Below, piece after piece: positions 10,019-18,420 of a stretch of 64,000 nt of DNA; positions within the stretch are counted from its first letter, which is position 1; each line of letters opens with the position of its first letter. This DNA comes from a virus: positions 1 to 64,000 of the IMG/VR virus record IMGVR_UViG_3300030106_006452. The stretch is one strand, 5' to 3'. A program made the position numbers and the translations under genes. The notes below the pieces were generated by a model. The model saw only the letters and a program-made list of their open reading frames with translations. It did not search any database and was not told the DNA's origin.

Positions 10019-10396
10019 TTAGCTTTGTCGACTAAACAAGCTTTTTACATAGCTTGTCCAGGCCCAAAATTTTCTTTCTTCAAGATAATCTGGTTCTAAG
10101 TCATTTGCGTATGCTTCGACCTCAAATGGGTTTCCGTAATACGCCGCTTGCCAGCTTCCCTTTGTGAAACGACCAATAACATAAAACAAACCGTATAAAA
10201 TCCACTGAAACACAAACAACATTTCAACTTGCTGTAAAAAGTGAATAGTCTCGTGAGTTATTGTTTTTTCACTTAACTGCCCTCGACAAACAACAAATGG
10301 ACCAGCAGAGAAAGCCCATACATCGATAGGAGCGATCTTTGATAGCCAATGAGGTAGTTTGCTATTTTCAATAAAAATTGGTTTTAAGTTCTTCAT
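10019..10396 (-). CDS. HExxH metalloprotease-like membrane protein
   Basis: A 125-residue protein with a zinc-protease signature HETIH at residues 48-52, followed by a hydrophobic segment (about 58-77, MLFVFQWILYGLFYVIGRF) and then NPFEVEAYAN (89-98), where a glutamate could be the third zinc ligand as in gluzincins. The short length means a minimal domain. Substrate unknown; it may act at the host membrane. Its ATG overlaps the stop of the 5' nuclease gene as ATGA, so it is the last gene of the operon starting at 12756. Confidence 0.65.
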   Translation of the reverse strand: MKNLKPIFIENSKLPHWLSKIAPIDVWAFSAGPFVVCRGQLSEKTITHETIHFLQQVEMLFVFQWILYGLFYVIGRFTKGSWQAAYYGNPFEVEAYANDLEPDYLEERKFWAWTSYVKSLFSRQS

Positions 10397-11367
10397 TTAT
10401 TAAGTTCCTTTTTATCCCTTTGGATTCTTGCGAACTGTTCGAACATACGATTCCAATTAATCTCATTGATTCCGTCTTCCAGCATCATAACTTGTGTTTG
10501 AGTTTTATTGAAGGTATGTTCGAAGTTGTCAATAATCCATTCGATGCTCTGTTTAGTCTGTGCCGAAAGACTGGGACTATACAGTTGCATCAGGTTATAA
10601 TTAGACTGAATAAGCGATTTATTCTCTTTTATAGAGATGAACGCCTTAGCGTTGCTTTCTTGATTTTCACAAAACTCTATCAAATCATTAATGTAAACAT
10701 CTTCTTCTTTTTCAAAGAAAGGAAAGCGTTTTGCTACCGTTTTCAGTCCAATACCAGGAACTCCATCTAAATTATCAGATTTATCTCCAACTATAGCACG
10801 AGCTAACGCAAAGTTGTTTGGATGAATGCCGTGCTCGTCTATTATGCTATTTTGTGTTAAAAGCTTTTTCTGTACAGGACGATATAAAATAGTCTTTTGA
10901 TCAAGCAACTGATAAAAGTCTTTATCGCTTGAAACTATAATTTTTTGACTATCACGCAAACTACTATATCGACATATATAAGAGATAATATCATCTGCTT
11001 CGACTTCATCTGCGATTAGCTGCATAACCGGAAAGTTATTTAAATATTCACAGATTCTTTCTTGTTGCCAGATTTTATTTTCTTTCTCTTGATCCTCTGT
11101 TAAAACCTTAAAATTACGGTTAAGACGAATAGGCGCTCGGCCTTCTTTGTAGTTTTTATTTTGCTGCTTGCGTTTGCGGCTTCCGCCGCGGCCATCCCAA
11201 CAAACAACCACTTGTGTTGGTTTCATTTCTCGGCAAAGCTTTTGAAGAGACTTAAGAAAGCCAGTTGTTCCACCAATGGGTTGACCCTCTTTCGAAAGCT
11301 GCGGGACTACAATATAACTTCGCAAGAACATATTTAGTCCGTCTATAATTATTACTCTCTCACTCAT
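10393..11367 (-). CDS. 5'-3' exonuclease / flap endonuclease (T4 RNase H / PolA 5'-nuclease family)
   Basis: Removes RNA primers and 5' flaps during lagging-strand synthesis. The FEN-type acidic residues are in place: IIDGLN at the N-terminus, CWDGRGGSRKR around residue 60, VEADDII near 120, SSDKDF near 145, and the helix-hairpin-helix GDKSDNLDGVPGIGLKT near 195. 324 residues is typical of T4-like family members. It overlaps the methyltransferase gene by 4 bases (ATGA) and the protease-like gene by 4. The A-family polymerase in this window lacks such a domain, so this protein can supply it in trans. Confidence 0.9.
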   Translation of the reverse strand: MSERVIIIDGLNMFLRSYIVVPQLSKEGQPIGGTTGFLKSLQKLCREMKPTQVVVCWDGRGGSRKRKQQNKNYKEGRAPIRLNRNFKVLTEDQEKENKIWQQERICEYLNNFPVMQLIADEVEADDIISYICRYSSLRDSQKIIVSSDKDFYQLLDQKTILYRPVQKKLLTQNSIIDEHGIHPNNFALARAIVGDKSDNLDGVPGIGLKTVAKRFPFFEKEEDVYINDLIEFCENQESNAKAFISIKENKSLIQSNYNLMQLYSPSLSAQTKQSIEWIIDNFEHTFNKTQTQVMMLEDGINEINWNRMFEQFARIQRDKKELNK

Positions 11368-12251
11368 ACTTTAGCCTTGTTTTGAAATACGTTTTCTAGC
11401 CTAGCCATAGATTTTTTATAATATTCTTCACTGAACTCACACCCGATGAAATCTCTGTTTAGATTTATTGCGGCCACTGCAGTTGTGCCAGAACCCGAAA
11501 AACAATCTAAAACTAAATCATTTTCATTTGAGTGTTTTCTAACAAGTTCTTCAAACAAAGGAAGACTTTTTTGTGTTGGATGAAATCTATCCTTACCGCC
11601 TTGAATTGGGAACTCATAAATAGCATTGTCGTAACTACTGTTGAATGTTGGGCTACCTTTTTTAACGCCAAGAAGTGCAATCTCTCTACAATTAGTGAGA
11701 TAATTTCTACTGCTGTTGAGAGGCTGCGGATTTGTTTTTATCCACTCAAGGAATCTCAACTGTTTAAACTTTGCGTTCTCAAGCTGTTCTTTAAGATAAG
11801 ATAGCTTCCAAATATCAAAAAAAATAATACACGTACCTCCTGGGCGAAGAACACGATAAAAATGTTGAATAAACAAATTCAATTTTTCCATCGTAAATTC
11901 AGAATCCCAAGAGCCATAATTGGTCTTTACGGCATACTTCTTACCGTAAATACTTCCATATTTTAAAAAATTATTTTTTAGTTCTTTGAGTTTTTTTTGT
12001 CTTTTTTCTTGAGGGACGTTTCCGCTATCCATCCAAGCTGACCACTCGTTATCTGTTTTATAAGTTAACCAGTCTTCCTCTGTCTTAACATTTTCAGAGC
12101 CTTCTGTATCTTGTCTGTTGATATGATCCACCCATTTGTCCATCCCAGTTTCCCGAGAGGTGATATAAGGTGGATCAGTCAACACTAGATCAACAGAATT
12201 ATCTGGAATGCCCTCTAAGAAAGACAGGCCATCTTGAAGAAACAATTTCAT
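11364..12251 (-). CDS. DNA methyltransferase, beta-class arrangement (N6-adenine or N4-cytosine)
   Basis: A 295-residue amino-methyltransferase. The catalytic DPPY is near the N-terminus (about residues 26-29), and the SAM-binding FxGxG motif (CFSGSGTT) lies near residue 250, the order of the beta class (e.g. CcrM). Between them a Lys-rich insert of about 100 residues probably reads the DNA target. The HPTQKSLPLFEELV segment typical of this class precedes the SAM motif. One base separates it from the PD-(D/E)xK protein upstream, suggesting a restriction-modification-like pair or a protective phage methylase. Confidence 0.88.
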   Translation of the reverse strand: MKLFLQDGLSFLEGIPDNSVDLVLTDPPYITSRETGMDKWVDHINRQDTEGSENVKTEEDWLTYKTDNEWSAWMDSGNVPQEKRQKKLKELKNNFLKYGSIYGKKYAVKTNYGSWDSEFTMEKLNLFIQHFYRVLRPGGTCIIFFDIWKLSYLKEQLENAKFKQLRFLEWIKTNPQPLNSSRNYLTNCREIALLGVKKGSPTFNSSYDNAIYEFPIQGGKDRFHPTQKSLPLFEELVRKHSNENDLVLDCFSGSGTTAVAAINLNRDFIGCEFSEEYYKKSMARLENVFQNKAKV

Positions 12252-12784: not shown

Positions 12785-12813
12785 ATACTAATAAAAATAT
12801 TTATACTTGTCAA
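12785..12813 (-). promoter_or_regulatory. sigma70-like promoter of the nuclease-methyltransferase operon
   Basis: TTGACA (12808-12813, overlapping the end of uvsX), 17 bp spacer, TAGTAT (12785-12790). The start codon is about 29 bases downstream behind AAAGGAG. Confidence 0.65.
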
Positions 12814-13922
12814 GCAGTTTCCTCGTAGAACTCAGTAGCATCACCAGTTCTTTTATCAAACTTGCGAACAACTTCCTCATCCATTATTTCAAGAACTCGT
12901 GCTTTAAATTTATCATCTTGAAGTTTGTCAATCCAGCGCGCAGATTGAAACTTTTCGCTTGTGCCATCTTCGAACTTAAGTTCATACCACGCCCCAGCGC
13001 GATCTAGATGCTCTGAGCCTTGGATAGCATCAAACCAACTTTCTTCGTCAGCAACGCCGACTTGATCACCCCAGAGGATTTGAAACTTGCATTGGCGTCC
13101 TTGTGAGCCAAAACGAGACTTCTCTAGCTTAACCTTGACAGTATTACCAATACGATAACCTTTGTCGTCAGTTACAAAAGAAGCTTTTGCTTTTGGTCTA
13201 GTTAGCCATACGCGCAATGAATAAGAATAAATCATCGCCTTACCACCGGGTGTTACATAAGGCGTAGTAAGCGTTTCCGAAGGTGAACGAGTGATATTTG
13301 TCTTAAGCTGATTTAACACTAGAAAAGTCGATTGACTATTCGCGATGGGAACAGTTAATTTAGACATGCCTTTTGCTAAGATCCGTGCTTTTACGGCCAT
13401 ACTAGACTGTGGATTAAAATCACCCTCCACATCAGAGATAGAAGGTGTAAGAGCCAAACTATCCCAGATAAAAAGAAACTGACTATCTGTAGAAGAAAGT
13501 AGTTCCTCCATTGTCTCCAAAACAAATTCTACTGAGGTTGCTTGGACATATAAAATCTTTGATGGGTCACATCCTGCTTTTTCTAAAAAGTTAAAGTCTA
13601 ATGAAGACTCTGAATCAAAGTAGACAACATCAATACCCATTTTTTGAGCATTCCCGGCTATCTGAGCGGCCATATAAGACTTGCCACTTGCCTCTAACCC
13701 AGCTATCTCCGTAACTTTACCTACTGGTATGCCAGCTAATTTGCCACGACAGATAATACTGTCGAGCCAGCGCGAGCCGGTTGGAATCCATTGCTTTACC
13801 GTCGTTGGATTATTTGGATCTGCTAGATCCACAGAGACTTCTTGTCCTGCCTTCTTATTTATTAGTTTTCTCATCTGGTCCATCGATAGACGACCAGCGG
13901 ATTTCTTTTTAGCCAATCTCAT
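12810..13922 (-). CDS. uvsX: UvsX/RecA-type recombinase
   Basis: Strand-exchange ATPase, 370 residues. Walker A is GLEASGKS (75-82). A following DSESS element and a Walker B-like FLFIWDSLALT segment (about 150-160) complete the ATPase, and FLVLNQLKTNI corresponds to the sensor/L1 region after strand 5. The PYVTPGGKAMIYSYSLRVWL stretch matches the conserved L2-and-after segment of UvsX proteins. ATG at 13922 sits behind GGAGGAA. It overlaps the upstream small gene by 14 bases. It acts with the gp32-like SSB encoded upstream. Confidence 0.93.
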   Translation of the reverse strand: MRLAKKKSAGRLSMDQMRKLINKKAGQEVSVDLADPNNPTTVKQWIPTGSRWLDSIICRGKLAGIPVGKVTEIAGLEASGKSYMAAQIAGNAQKMGIDVVYFDSESSLDFNFLEKAGCDPSKILYVQATSVEFVLETMEELLSSTDSQFLFIWDSLALTPSISDVEGDFNPQSSMAVKARILAKGMSKLTVPIANSQSTFLVLNQLKTNITRSPSETLTTPYVTPGGKAMIYSYSLRVWLTRPKAKASFVTDDKGYRIGNTVKVKLEKSRFGSQGRQCKFQILWGDQVGVADEESWFDAIQGSEHLDRAGAWYELKFEDGTSEKFQSARWIDKLQDDKFKARVLEIMDEEVVRKFDKRTGDATEFYEETA

Positions 13923-14595: not shown

Positions 14596-15339
14596 TTAGC
14601 TACCAAGTAGCTCAGAGAATGCCTTATCGACATCCGAAACGTTTCCAGCAGTAGACGTTACTGACTGGTTAGAAGTAACTTCATCAACAGTGTTGAGGAA
14701 GCGATCAAGGATATCCGTTACCTGATTAGTAGAGCGACGAGCATCAGCAAATACTTCGTCAAAATCAGGTACAGACTCCATGAGAGTTCGCGCTTGCGCC
14801 TCATCCTCGTGAAGAAGAGAAGACTTGCGCCGCGGAGTAATCTTAGTTTCAGGATAAGATGCTCCTGCAGGCTTTGAGTAGCCAATAACCAAGTCAGTGC
14901 CCTCTGTGGGGTCTGTGATATCGCCATACTCTGGGTTAAGAACAAGGCCGAGTAGAGTTTCATAAGCACGCTTACCAAAGCCCCAAACTTTTACACCTTC
15001 TTCTTCTTGTCCTCGAACAAGCACCGGAGCAAAGAAACGCTGCTTCGCGCCTAACTTACGTGCTACTCGCTTTGACTCTTCAGAGCCTTCACGCCATAGG
15101 GCACGTACATAATCATCGAGTGGGCAGTCCTCACCAAAGTTACGCTTTGGCGAAAGAAATCCAGGCTCACCCGCTACGTCATAATGAAACCAGTAATCTC
15201 GGAAGGGATCGCCGTCCGATGGAGCTACCAAACGAATAGTCTGCTCGCCCTCCTGTGGTTTCCAAAAAGTATTCTTCTTATTTCCATTTCCTTGTAGCGC
15301 GTCCAAGCGGGCACGCATCTTTTCCATATTAATTCCCAT
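14596..15339 (-). CDS. single-stranded DNA-binding protein, gp32-like
   Basis: 247-residue SSB. The N-terminus MEKMRARLDALQG and the FWKPQEGEQTIRLVAPSDGDPFRDYWFHYDV block are characteristic of marine T4-like gp32 proteins; GKRAYETLLGLVLNPEYGDITDP matches the OB-fold core. The C-terminus is Ser/Thr-rich and ends in acidic DVDKAFSELLGS, the expected protein-docking tail. The T4 zinc-finger cysteines are absent; only one cysteine remains. It has a strong AAGGAG site and its own terminator, suggesting abundant expression. It should cooperate with UvsX, helicase and polymerase. Confidence 0.87.
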   Translation of the reverse strand: MGINMEKMRARLDALQGNGNKKNTFWKPQEGEQTIRLVAPSDGDPFRDYWFHYDVAGEPGFLSPKRNFGEDCPLDDYVRALWREGSEESKRVARKLGAKQRFFAPVLVRGQEEEGVKVWGFGKRAYETLLGLVLNPEYGDITDPTEGTDLVIGYSKPAGASYPETKITPRRKSSLLHEDEAQARTLMESVPDFDEVFADARRSTNQVTDILDRFLNTVDEVTSNQSVTSTAGNVSDVDKAFSELLGS

Positions 15340-15363: not shown

Positions 15364-15386
15364 CAGTGTGTTGATCTTTCACACTG
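15364..15386 (-). repeat. inverted repeat in the SSB leader
   Basis: A 7-bp perfect inverted repeat (CAGTGTG / CACACTG, 9-base loop) spans the stop codon of the tubulin-like gene, 25 bases before the SSB start. There is no T run, so it is not a terminator. T4 gp32 represses its own translation through a leader structure; a similar operator is possible. Confidence 0.4.
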
Positions 15387-16227
15387 CTAGTTGTTGTATT
15401 AAAGTGCTGCTTTTTTCGCAGTAAGCTATAAGCTCATTATAATCAGTTGAATGAACTGAATAAGTAGTTTTCATTTTTTCGTGTTCTGTATTACATTTTA
15501 AATTTTTACGAATAACCTCCATAAGATTAGGATCTTCTTCCAATTGTTTTTTCGGAACTCCATAATAATAACTTTTTTCTCGTGGAATGTCAAGCTCAAA
15601 AAACATTTTTTCTTGATTATTTTCAGAATCTAACAGACCAAACGTTGATATGCGTGCAGTATCAATACGCTTTGTTTGTGTAGTCATTATGGGCTGTGTA
15701 TTTTGAAAAACATTTAACATATGATAAGTTGTAGCGATCAAGTGATTTATTGAGTCCCAGAACTTCATTATTGGAACAGGTCCCATTATATCAGATAATT
15801 TATAATTGTCAATTAAAAAAACACGATCTAGTAAATTTGATCGAGCATATTCTTGAAAGACATTAAAAAGTAATCTATTTTGGAGAAGTTTTTGCCCAGC
15901 AAGGTCATCTTTCTGTGGGAGAACATACATTACTCGTATTTTGGCTTTCTTGTGTATTTTCTGTAAAATTTTCAAAGAAGCACCAGAGACAGCACCGCAA
16001 CTTGTGATAAATAAAGTTTCAGGCATCACCCCCTCTAGAAAATTATTTATGCCTTTCGGCATATTGCTTTTTTCATAAAGTTCTGGACTGTCCTGATGCT
16101 TAAGACCAAATGTTGTTTTGGTCTTTTTTAATCCTACATCTATTTTTTTTATTTCGTATTGTGGGTATTGTGACAGGTGGTCTGCGATGCTGCAACCCGC
16201 TTTACCCAAACCTATAACGGTTTGCAT
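15379..16227 (-). CDS. FtsZ/tubulin-like GTPase-fold protein
   Basis: A 282-residue protein whose order of motifs follows the FtsZ/TubZ/PhuZ family. It opens with a nucleotide-binding strand-loop VIGLGKAGCSIADHL (FtsZ: VGVGGGGxNAV). Next come ETLFITSCGAVSGAS (71-84), the place of the GGGTGTG signature loop; RVMYVLPQKDD (98-108), as VVTxPF; and RVFLIDNYKL (135-144), as LIVIPNDRL. A long H7-like helix (156-176) leads to KRIDTARIS (186-194), the place of the catalytic NxDxxD loop. The signature loop is degenerate (SCGAVSGAS), so GTP binding may be altered. Good AAGAGG site. Likely forms filaments or is a filament-derived factor; that is inference. Confidence 0.7.
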   Translation of the reverse strand: MQTVIGLGKAGCSIADHLSQYPQYEIKKIDVGLKKTKTTFGLKHQDSPELYEKSNMPKGINNFLEGVMPETLFITSCGAVSGASLKILQKIHKKAKIRVMYVLPQKDDLAGQKLLQNRLLFNVFQEYARSNLLDRVFLIDNYKLSDIMGPVPIMKFWDSINHLIATTYHMLNVFQNTQPIMTTQTKRIDTARISTFGLLDSENNQEKMFFELDIPREKSYYYGVPKKQLEEDPNLMEVIRKNLKCNTEHEKMKTTYSVHSTDYNELIAYCEKSSTLIQQLAV

Positions 16228-16236
16228 TTATTCCTC

Positions 16237-16953
16237 TTATTCTGCTGTGGCTATTTTCTGTGCTGTGCCGACTGCGCTTCTTTTTTTAATGTCTTTGGCG
16301 GCTTTTTTCAGATCGCCTTGAGTTTGCACTGATAGTCCTGGCGCTGTGTGTCCAGATATTCCACGTTCAAACTTGTTTTGTACAAAATTTTGTAGTTGAA
16401 GATTGACATCTAAATCAGTCGAATCCATAACATCGTTTTCTGGCTTGCTCTGAATATTACCAAGCCACGCTTTTAAAAATTCTTCTTCAATTCTATCATC
16501 TAGCATTGCAGAATATTTTGGATCAACGTTAAAAAGATCCAAAAATGGAGCTTTGTCAGTGGTAGAGGTTGGCTCATTTTTATACTTTTTATAAAGTTTT
16601 TTGCCTAAATCAAACGTTGCTTTAGCTACTGGGGCACCAGCGGCTATTGCCTTACCCAATCCAATGACTGCCGCAATAGTTATAGGTTCTTCCAACAGTA
16701 GATTTTTAGAATCTGATTCTTTCGACTCCGTAAACAGCTTACCAGCGAAATTTAATAATAATTTTGCCTCGTCGCTACTAAAGAATTTACCAATCCCAGT
16801 AGCAGCAACTAAAGCATCACTCTTTAAACCCTGCTTTGCGCCAAGAAAAAGCTTCAGAAGAGCACCAAATTGGCCATAGGTTACGGGATCTGATTCTTCA
16901 ACCTCATTAACATAACCTCTCCAACTTTCAAGTATTAATTTCATCTCACTCAT
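16237..16953 (-). CDS. hypothetical protein with N-terminal capsid-targeting-like motif
   Basis: A 238-residue protein. After MSE it reads MKLILESWRGYVNE, almost the same as the start of the protein at 2059-2895, ending in a VNE that fits a gp21-type cleavage site. The middle has a hydrophobic, Gly/Ala-rich helix pair (ITIAAVIGLGKAIAAGAPVA, about 91-110) that could be membrane-active, then a Lys-rich stretch. I infer a protein packed in the head and possibly released on infection; it cannot be named. ATGA overlap with the gene before it. Confidence 0.75.
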   Translation of the reverse strand: MSEMKLILESWRGYVNEVEESDPVTYGQFGALLKLFLGAKQGLKSDALVAATGIGKFFSSDEAKLLLNFAGKLFTESKESDSKNLLLEEPITIAAVIGLGKAIAAGAPVAKATFDLGKKLYKKYKNEPTSTTDKAPFLDLFNVDPKYSAMLDDRIEEEFLKAWLGNIQSKPENDVMDSTDLDVNLQLQNFVQNKFERGISGHTAPGLSVQTQGDLKKAAKDIKKRSAVGTAQKIATAE

Positions 16954-17222
16954 TGTTTAAGCACTTTATCTAGCTCTGCATTTAACTGCTTGAGGAGTTG
17001 GGTTATCCTTCCGGCCGCTGCGAGATTGCCTTTTTTTGCAAAATTCTTCAATTTTGTCTCAACTTGATTTAATATTGCGCGTTCCTTATCATCAACACCA
17101 GCCTGGGTCTTCGCTGCAGCCTTCATTTGCTGTGTTTTGTAATCCGTAGAGGAAAGCTTTGCTTCTTGTTCTTTTAGTTCTTCTAAAATAAGCTGTTTGA
17201 TGTATTCTTTTGTTGCATTCAT
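16950..17222 (-). CDS. small helical protein with capsid-targeting-like motif
   Basis: 90 residues, almost entirely charged helix. The first 18 residues (KEYIKQLILEELKEQ) resemble the KQIIREELSEQ motif of the protein at 40162-40893 and include LKE, a possible prohead-protease site. The remainder is Lys/Ala/Gln-rich. Coupled by ATGA to the gene at 16237-16953, with which it may act. Function unknown. Confidence 0.7.
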   Translation of the reverse strand: MNATKEYIKQLILEELKEQEAKLSSTDYKTQQMKAAAKTQAGVDDKERAILNQVETKLKNFAKKGNLAAAGRITQLLKQLNAELDKVLKQ

Positions 17223-17232
17223 ATAAAATTCC

Positions 17233-18420
17233 CTATTTTATATTTAAAGTCTTCATATCTGCCCAGTTTTTACCACCTTCGTGATTAACTTTAAATTTGC
17301 CAAACCTTGTGTTACTAAATAGTTTCGATATTTGGTTTATGTCATATTGATCTTCATTTGAAAGATCAATAACTAGGCTATCGTGATTACAAAATTTAAC
17401 AAAAGATTTTTTGTCTTTTAAGAATTCCCAAATTTGATACATTTGTTCAAATACTAAATCTGCTGCTGTAGATTGAATAATATAACTGATAGCATGATCT
17501 TCATCCGATTCAATCTCTCTACCGAACTGTGTATAAACCTTGCCTAAAACTTTATCAAAATACATATCTTTTAGAACTTTACGGTCATAAATCTTATCAA
17601 CCTTGGCATCAGTACTATTTGGATTGTAAAGCCAAGAAAAAATCCTTTTCTTTGCATTTTCTCTACTTTTGGTTCTAGTAAAAACATTTTTAAGATTCCA
17701 ATCGTGTAGGTCTTCTTCAGGTTGGTCGTGTCCAAGAAGAGCTAAAGCGACTCGTAACTCGCAAGCATTGAAATCCAACTCAAACAACCAATCGTTAGTG
17801 GGGGTAACAATTTGGCGATATTTTTTTGGAAGTGTCATTACTGGAAACGAGTTTGGTCTTGTTGTCAAGCGACCTGTGACTGTTTTAAACATATCATAAT
17901 CAATATAAGGTTTACAATTGCTTACAGTTTTAAACATATTACGGTCTTGAACTGTAAGTCTCTCTATTTTTGTTGGATCAATGTTGACATTACGGTTTTT
18001 AATGTCTGCTATAACCTTGTTTGTCTTTAACAACTGATCGTAGTCTGTGGGTTTTGGGTAGTTGATAAAAATATCTTCACAAATTTTATTTTTTATCTCT
18101 GCGAAGTTTTGTAGATAATGCTTTGGAATTAAATCATATAAGCAGTAGTCATCCAGACTTAGACCTACTTCGTTTGCTGCCTTGAACGCTGCTTTGATTC
18201 TTGCTTGGACTGCGGACCACTCCCCTCTAAAACCTTCTGGGCAAAGCTGGTCCAGGGATTTACCCCCGGTGTAAAGATTAGCATACTCGACCTCCTTGTC
18301 TCGTAGATAAGTAGCATATGACCAAGTTTGAGTGCAATTATCTGTAATTTGTTCGCTAAATGTTCCTTTTCTGTAGATAAGGGAGCATTTGTTTTTTTCA
18401 TCAAATGTTTGGAAAAGCAT
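17233..18420 (-). CDS. A-family DNA polymerase-like protein, short form
   Basis: 395 residues carrying the PolA palm/fingers but no exonuclease domain. TGRLTTRPNSFPVM (182-195) precedes motif A, DFNACELR (216-223, with the catalytic Asp). Motif B keeps the R-x3-K-x3-F-x3-Y spacing (R253, K257, F261, Y265). QSTAADLV lies at 316-323 and motif C is NHDS (345-348), with the usual HDE glutamate replaced by serine. The catalytic aspartates are kept, so it may be active in repair or gap filling next to DnaE. The T to A-family replacement of T4's family B enzyme is not expected for a T4-type phage. Confidence 0.82.
   Translation of the reverse strand: MLFQTFDEKNKCSLIYRKGTFSEQITDNCTQTWSYATYLRDKEVEYANLYTGGKSLDQLCPEGFRGEWSAVQARIKAAFKAANEVGLSLDDYCLYDLIPKHYLQNFAEIKNKICEDIFINYPKPTDYDQLLKTNKVIADIKNRNVNIDPTKIERLTVQDRNMFKTVSNCKPYIDYDMFKTVTGRLTTRPNSFPVMTLPKKYRQIVTPTNDWLFELDFNACELRVALALLGHDQPEEDLHDWNLKNVFTRTKSRENAKKRIFSWLYNPNSTDAKVDKIYDRKVLKDMYFDKVLGKVYTQFGREIESDEDHAISYIIQSTAADLVFEQMYQIWEFLKDKKSFVKFCNHDSLVIDLSNEDQYDINQISKLFSNTRFGKFKVNHEGGKNWADMKTLNIK

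Follow-up and report, generated by a model that had tools for sequence, protein, structure and literature searches.

To our knowledge, every tubulin-superfamily protein of known role acts in or on filaments. Among the closest described systems, PhuZ and phage TubZ (201phi2-1 gp59, PhiKZ gp39) are encoded by phages; PhuZ makes filaments, carries the T4 loop, the T7 catalytic aspartate, helix H8, and a C-terminal tail, and has no fixed place in an operon of DNA polymerase and single-stranded DNA-binding protein (SSB) genes. Bacillus TubZ (PDB 4ei7, 2xkb) is a filament protein of plasmid segregation. In canonical protofilaments, subunits touch through S9, the T7 loop, and the base of helix H8, and T7 bears the catalytic aspartate (PMC3678025). 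Here, we describe a 282-amino-acid (aa) protein encoded in the window, that is, positions 1 to 64,000 of IMG/VR virus record IMGVR_UViG_3300030106_006452 (130,668 bp). Sequence profiles and structure models place it in the tubulin/FtsZ superfamily as a trimmed and divergent member, with a fold that we consider firm, and its gene is a core gene of the replication module.

The open reading frame (ORF) that an initial annotation had reported from the sequence is real, with an ATG start on the minus strand, and so are the sequence blocks noted within it. A ratio of nonsynonymous to synonymous substitution rates (dN/dS) of 0.08-0.12, obtained against five relatives at 83-92% identity, indicates purifying selection, and family members are mostly 270-299 aa long. 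The gene and its elements are as follows.

15379..16227, minus strand: tubulin/FtsZ-fold protein, 282 aa (ORF, AlphaFold2 (AF2) model, Foldseek, profile comparison)
16233..16236, minus strand: Shine-Dalgarno-like GAGG upstream of the ATG start (read from the sequence)
16189..16212, minus strand: T1 nucleotide loop GLGKAGCS, residues 6-13; family form GLGxAGCN (weighted conservation)
15976..16002, minus strand: position of the signature (T4) loop, SCGAVSGAS, residues 76-84; varies across the family (alignment, entropy)
15835..15873, minus strand: end of helix H5, LLFNVFQEYARSN, residues 119-131; best-conserved stretch (weighted conservation)
15802..15816, minus strand: T6 loop LIDNY, residues 138-142, with N141 at the guanine-contact position (aligned with FtsZ IPND)
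15703..15771, minus strand: helix H7, residues 153-175, bearing W157 and N161 (AF2 helix, alignment)
15652..15702, minus strand: stretch replacing the T7 loop and H8, residues 176-192 (both AF2 models, conservation)

The AF2 model of the window protein, built on an alignment of 41 relatives, has a predicted local distance difference test score (pLDDT) of 93.3 and a predicted template modeling score (pTM) of 0.91, and contains the long helix H7 (residues 153-175) and a C-terminal domain. In Foldseek comparisons with the PDB, all 50 of the best-listed matches were FtsZ or TubZ, at a query-based template modeling score (TMq) of 0.64-0.73 and 10-16% identity. Bacterial FtsZ forms the best match set, and the top single match is Bacillus TubZ (E 5e-13), which is longer and has a long C-terminal helix. 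A second AF2 model, of a member 37% identical to the window protein (L079, pLDDT 90.5), shows the same order of elements, and FtsZ and TubZ again account for all 50 of its best-listed PDB matches (best E 2.4e-14). The FtsZ/tubulin-like identity proposed by the initial annotation, which had also suggested such a structural comparison, is thus borne out. The closest viral structure is that of A0A6J5RW92 from an uncultured Caudovirales phage ("FtsZ Cell division GTPase"; TMq 0.81, root-mean-square deviation 3.4 A), although this protein has 452 aa and only 14% identity to the window protein.

Profile comparison agrees with the models. A profile of 140 distinct relatives scored 37.7 against PhuZ and 29.9 against FtsZ, compared with best scores of 20.2 and 21.5, respectively, among 40 column-shuffled copies. 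The profile-profile alignment is collinear from T1 through H7, including with FtsZ, and T1-T4 are collinear with PhuZ (hhalign E 2.3e-4). Because the profile beats all shuffles and the 50 best-listed PDB matches of both models are FtsZ/TubZ throughout, the likeness to the tubulin superfamily is beyond chance. Single family sequences score under the Pfam cut-off for tubulin/FtsZ; PF00091 matched weakly in 12 of 41 members (best E 0.0059), and weak TrkA_N and MurD matches also occur in the family. The window protein alone gave nothing convincing in Pfam, PHROGs, PDB sequences, or GenBank phages, and direct searches for the family in Pfam, PHROGs, NCBIfam, PADLOC, and PDB sequences returned only weak matches. 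Matches to PADLOC PtuB and Pfam PA_Ig-like were taken as chance, being single or weak.

Residue conservation, weighted over 212 distinct sequences (effective number 95), separates what the family has kept from what it has lost. All sequence blocks quoted in the initial annotation are present, and four of them map to loops of the fold: VIGLGKAG is T1, SCGAVSGAS lies at the T4 position, VLPQKDD is T5, and FLIDN is T6. KRIDTARIS, placed last in that series, is not the T7 loop; the C-terminal domain begins its first strand just after this block. T1 is well kept (G6 99%, G8 100%, G11 93%), as are the guanine-contact residues of T6 and H7, which are present in most members and lost in a few divergent ones (N141 92%, N161 93%, with an aromatic residue four positions earlier, at 157, in most members). 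W157 and N161 lie at the guanine-contact positions F183/D187 of FtsZ and Y224/N228 of tubulin. The GTP signature loop had been read as degenerate, and it is so across the family: the canonical GGGTG(S/T)G is not kept, the loop varies over the 212 sequences, reading SCG in about half of the first sequence set and GSG or GGG in others, and its mean entropy is 2.02 bits, whereas T1 and the H5 end each have 1.01. In that last stretch, within FNVFQEYARSG, Q125 (100%), R129 (99%), and S130 (99%) are near-invariant.

Neither a T7 loop nor H8 is present, since residues 176-192 form no helix in either model and hold no acidic residue conserved above 61%, nor a conserved acidic pair. The window protein likewise has neither helix H9 nor a C-terminal tail; the model stops after the last core strand (267-274), with no H11 or tail beyond the core. 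The family differs from bacterial FtsZ, to which identity is 10-16%, in lacking GGGTGTG, T7, H8, H9, and the C-terminal peptide.

The gene sits in a DNA replication operon with an almost fixed succession of polymerase, tubulin-like gene, SSB, and UvsX. In the window, this module comprises the following neighbors.

14596..15339, minus strand: gp32-like SSB, downstream partner (PF08804 E 6e-13; phrog_1192 E 6.5e-22)
17233..18420, minus strand: compact family-A DNA polymerase core, 395 aa, upstream partner (PF00476 E 1.9e-11; phrog_17; alignment)
12810..13922, minus strand: UvsX-like recombinase, same module (phrog_97 E 1.2e-55)
16237..16953, minus strand: 238-aa protein between polymerase and tubulin-like gene, recognized in part of the family only
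16950..17222, minus strand: 90-aa protein between polymerase and tubulin-like gene, recognized in part of the family only

The adjoining SSB gene had been named in the initial annotation. Across 144 distinct loci, counting those with enough flanking sequence, an SSB (gp32) gene lies downstream in 125 of 125 and a family-A polymerase gene upstream in 102 of 105. The gap between polymerase and tubulin-like gene is at most 20 nt in 69 of the 102, and 35 of these overlap. When loci were picked by their polymerase, 78 of 80 carried the tubulin-like gene, and the contigs of the other two end within 500 bases. The window polymerase is very small, with HDS in motif C; a gene of its own (10393-11367) encodes a 5'-3' exonuclease. 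A DNA methyltransferase-like ORF with a DPPY motif lies beside the recombination genes (11364-12251), and a ribonucleotide reductase is encoded in the same window. In a search for a T4-type clamp (PF02916), none of the controls gave a match.

Relatives occur on at least 588 IMG/VR contigs, at identities down to ~34%; the phages concerned form a large T4-related group, uncultured and mostly marine. We found no relatives in GTDB genomes (one genome per species), and tblastn with four family members returned no matches in 50,697 GenBank phage records. Open-licence PMC full texts, a set without subscription papers and preprints, yielded work on PhuZ/TubZ and jumbo phages and no description of this family. 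The T4-like setting of the initial annotation holds, as the major head, portal, terminase, and sheath genes of the window are T4-like; the window has no tRNAs. The nearest GenBank major capsid matches (34-40%) are Rhodothermus phage RM378, Microcystis phage Mel-JY01, and unannotated metagenomic sequence, and on this similarity the phage falls close to the "Far-T4" group (PMC4360716). The tubulin-like family is absent from RM378, from Mel-JY01, and from two huge phages of metagenomic origin, and the Far-T4 genome paper mentions neither FtsZ nor tubulin (PMC4360716).

Some of these phages encode a second, canonical FtsZ-like family. It came to light as an extra gene (L240, 1030-2121, minus strand) in the 165,872 bp record of L164, whose product matches PF00091 (E 3.1e-6) and has intact GGGGGTGSA (T4) and FDSKDLE (T7). 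In IMG/VR, this family (A3, L249-L328) numbers 107 relatives or more, and GenBank phage records yielded none; its proteins of ~345-410 aa carry an acidic N-terminal tail and intact GGGGGTGS and FDxKDLE, and its profile matches FtsZ at E 7.9e-11. Directly upstream of the L240 gene, a 237-aa gene (L240:2158-2871, minus strand) looks sigma-factor-like by eye and has no Pfam match. The two phage tubulin families showed no special kinship to each other, as their score of 21.2 falls below the best shuffle (24.4; 27.3 in the reverse direction). Seven records carry both families, and there the polymerase-SSB member retains its place and QEY(A/T)RSG, and its nucleotide pocket is often further decayed (L331-L335): L331 lacks N141 and N161, and L334 and L335 have altered T1/T4. 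The T1 and T4 loops of L331-L335 are strongly altered, as though these members could do without a nucleotide pocket. No second tubulin was seen in the window's record, which may be incomplete.

We regard the place in the operon, like the fold, as firm; function and nucleotide binding are inferred. We give an even chance to the reading that a trimmed tubulin has become fixed in the Far-T4-like replication gene set as a guanine-binding accessory of the replisome and not a self-activating polymer. Most members would still bind a guanine nucleotide through T1, N141 (T6), and N161 (H7), without the turnover of a self-activating polymer, and may use it as a structural or switch ligand, while the near-invariant QEYARSG at the end of H5 would dock onto polymerase and/or SSB. 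More tentatively, and at somewhat under even odds, the tubulin fold may have been recruited as a core replisome component that binds the family-A polymerase and/or SSB, possibly serving in processivity or loading, and is no longer a cytoskeletal GTPase. We consider a replication accessory likelier than a PhuZ-like filament, given where the gene lies in the operon, how nearly always it accompanies the polymerase, that the parts which activate a polymer are lost, and that H5 is conserved above most nucleotide loops; moreover, operon place and QEY(A/T)RSG persist where the nucleotide pocket decays (L331-L335). Against this interpretation, shared descent in one phage lineage can alone maintain gene order, H5 might be conserved for self-assembly, and the polymerase scan is partly circular, since its seeds were polymerases of contigs carrying the tubulin-like gene.

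The best-surviving alternative, which we consider unlikely, is a cytoskeletal tubulin like PhuZ/TubZ, whose filaments would position phage DNA by a non-standard contact and catalysis. The tubulin/FtsZ fold and the mostly retained guanine-site residues are consistent with it, and PhuZ of jumbo phages does so (PMC4244570), but T7 and H8 are gone without a well-conserved acid (above 61%) in the replacing segment, the C-terminal tail is absent, and the signature loop drifts. Less probable still is a monomer with a single working contact face that would block division or steer assembly by capping or poisoning either the FtsZ of the host or the canonical FtsZ-like protein of the phage itself. An FtsZ-like fold without T7 would indeed be a one-sided subunit, and seven records hold the canonical protein as well; however, that partner is absent from 21 of 22 family-bearing records tested (many of them fragments), expression coupled to polymerase and SSB would be odd for a division inhibitor, and the best-conserved site, H5, lies outside the T1-T6 nucleotide loops. 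The initial annotation had suggested a filament role or a regulator of host FtsZ; no finding supports either. The operon points to DNA replication, and the T7/H8 contact elements are missing. Slightly less probable again is a guanine-nucleotide enzyme or nucleotide-pool sensor that serves replication with no replisome contact, as might be suggested by T1, N141, and N161 (conserved in ~92-99% of members) and the ribonucleotide reductase in the window; against it, the pocket decays (L331, L334, L335) while gene position and H5 persist. A plain Rossmann protein with an accidental tubulin likeness, to which the dinucleotide-binding-like N-terminal motif and the weak TrkA_N and MurD matches could point, is very improbable and already contradicted by the long H7 and C-terminal domain, by profile scores above all shuffles, and by two models of different members whose 50 best-listed PDB matches are all FtsZ/TubZ (E down to 2.4e-14).

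If the replisome-accessory reading is true, these phages would put the tubulin fold to a new use, with its polymer-activating parts discarded and its gene locked between those for DNA polymerase and SSB. A further lineage of phage tubulins would come with the canonical FtsZ-like family that co-occurs with it. The protein would also provide a testable handle on DNA replication by uncultured phages with a small, split family-A polymerase.
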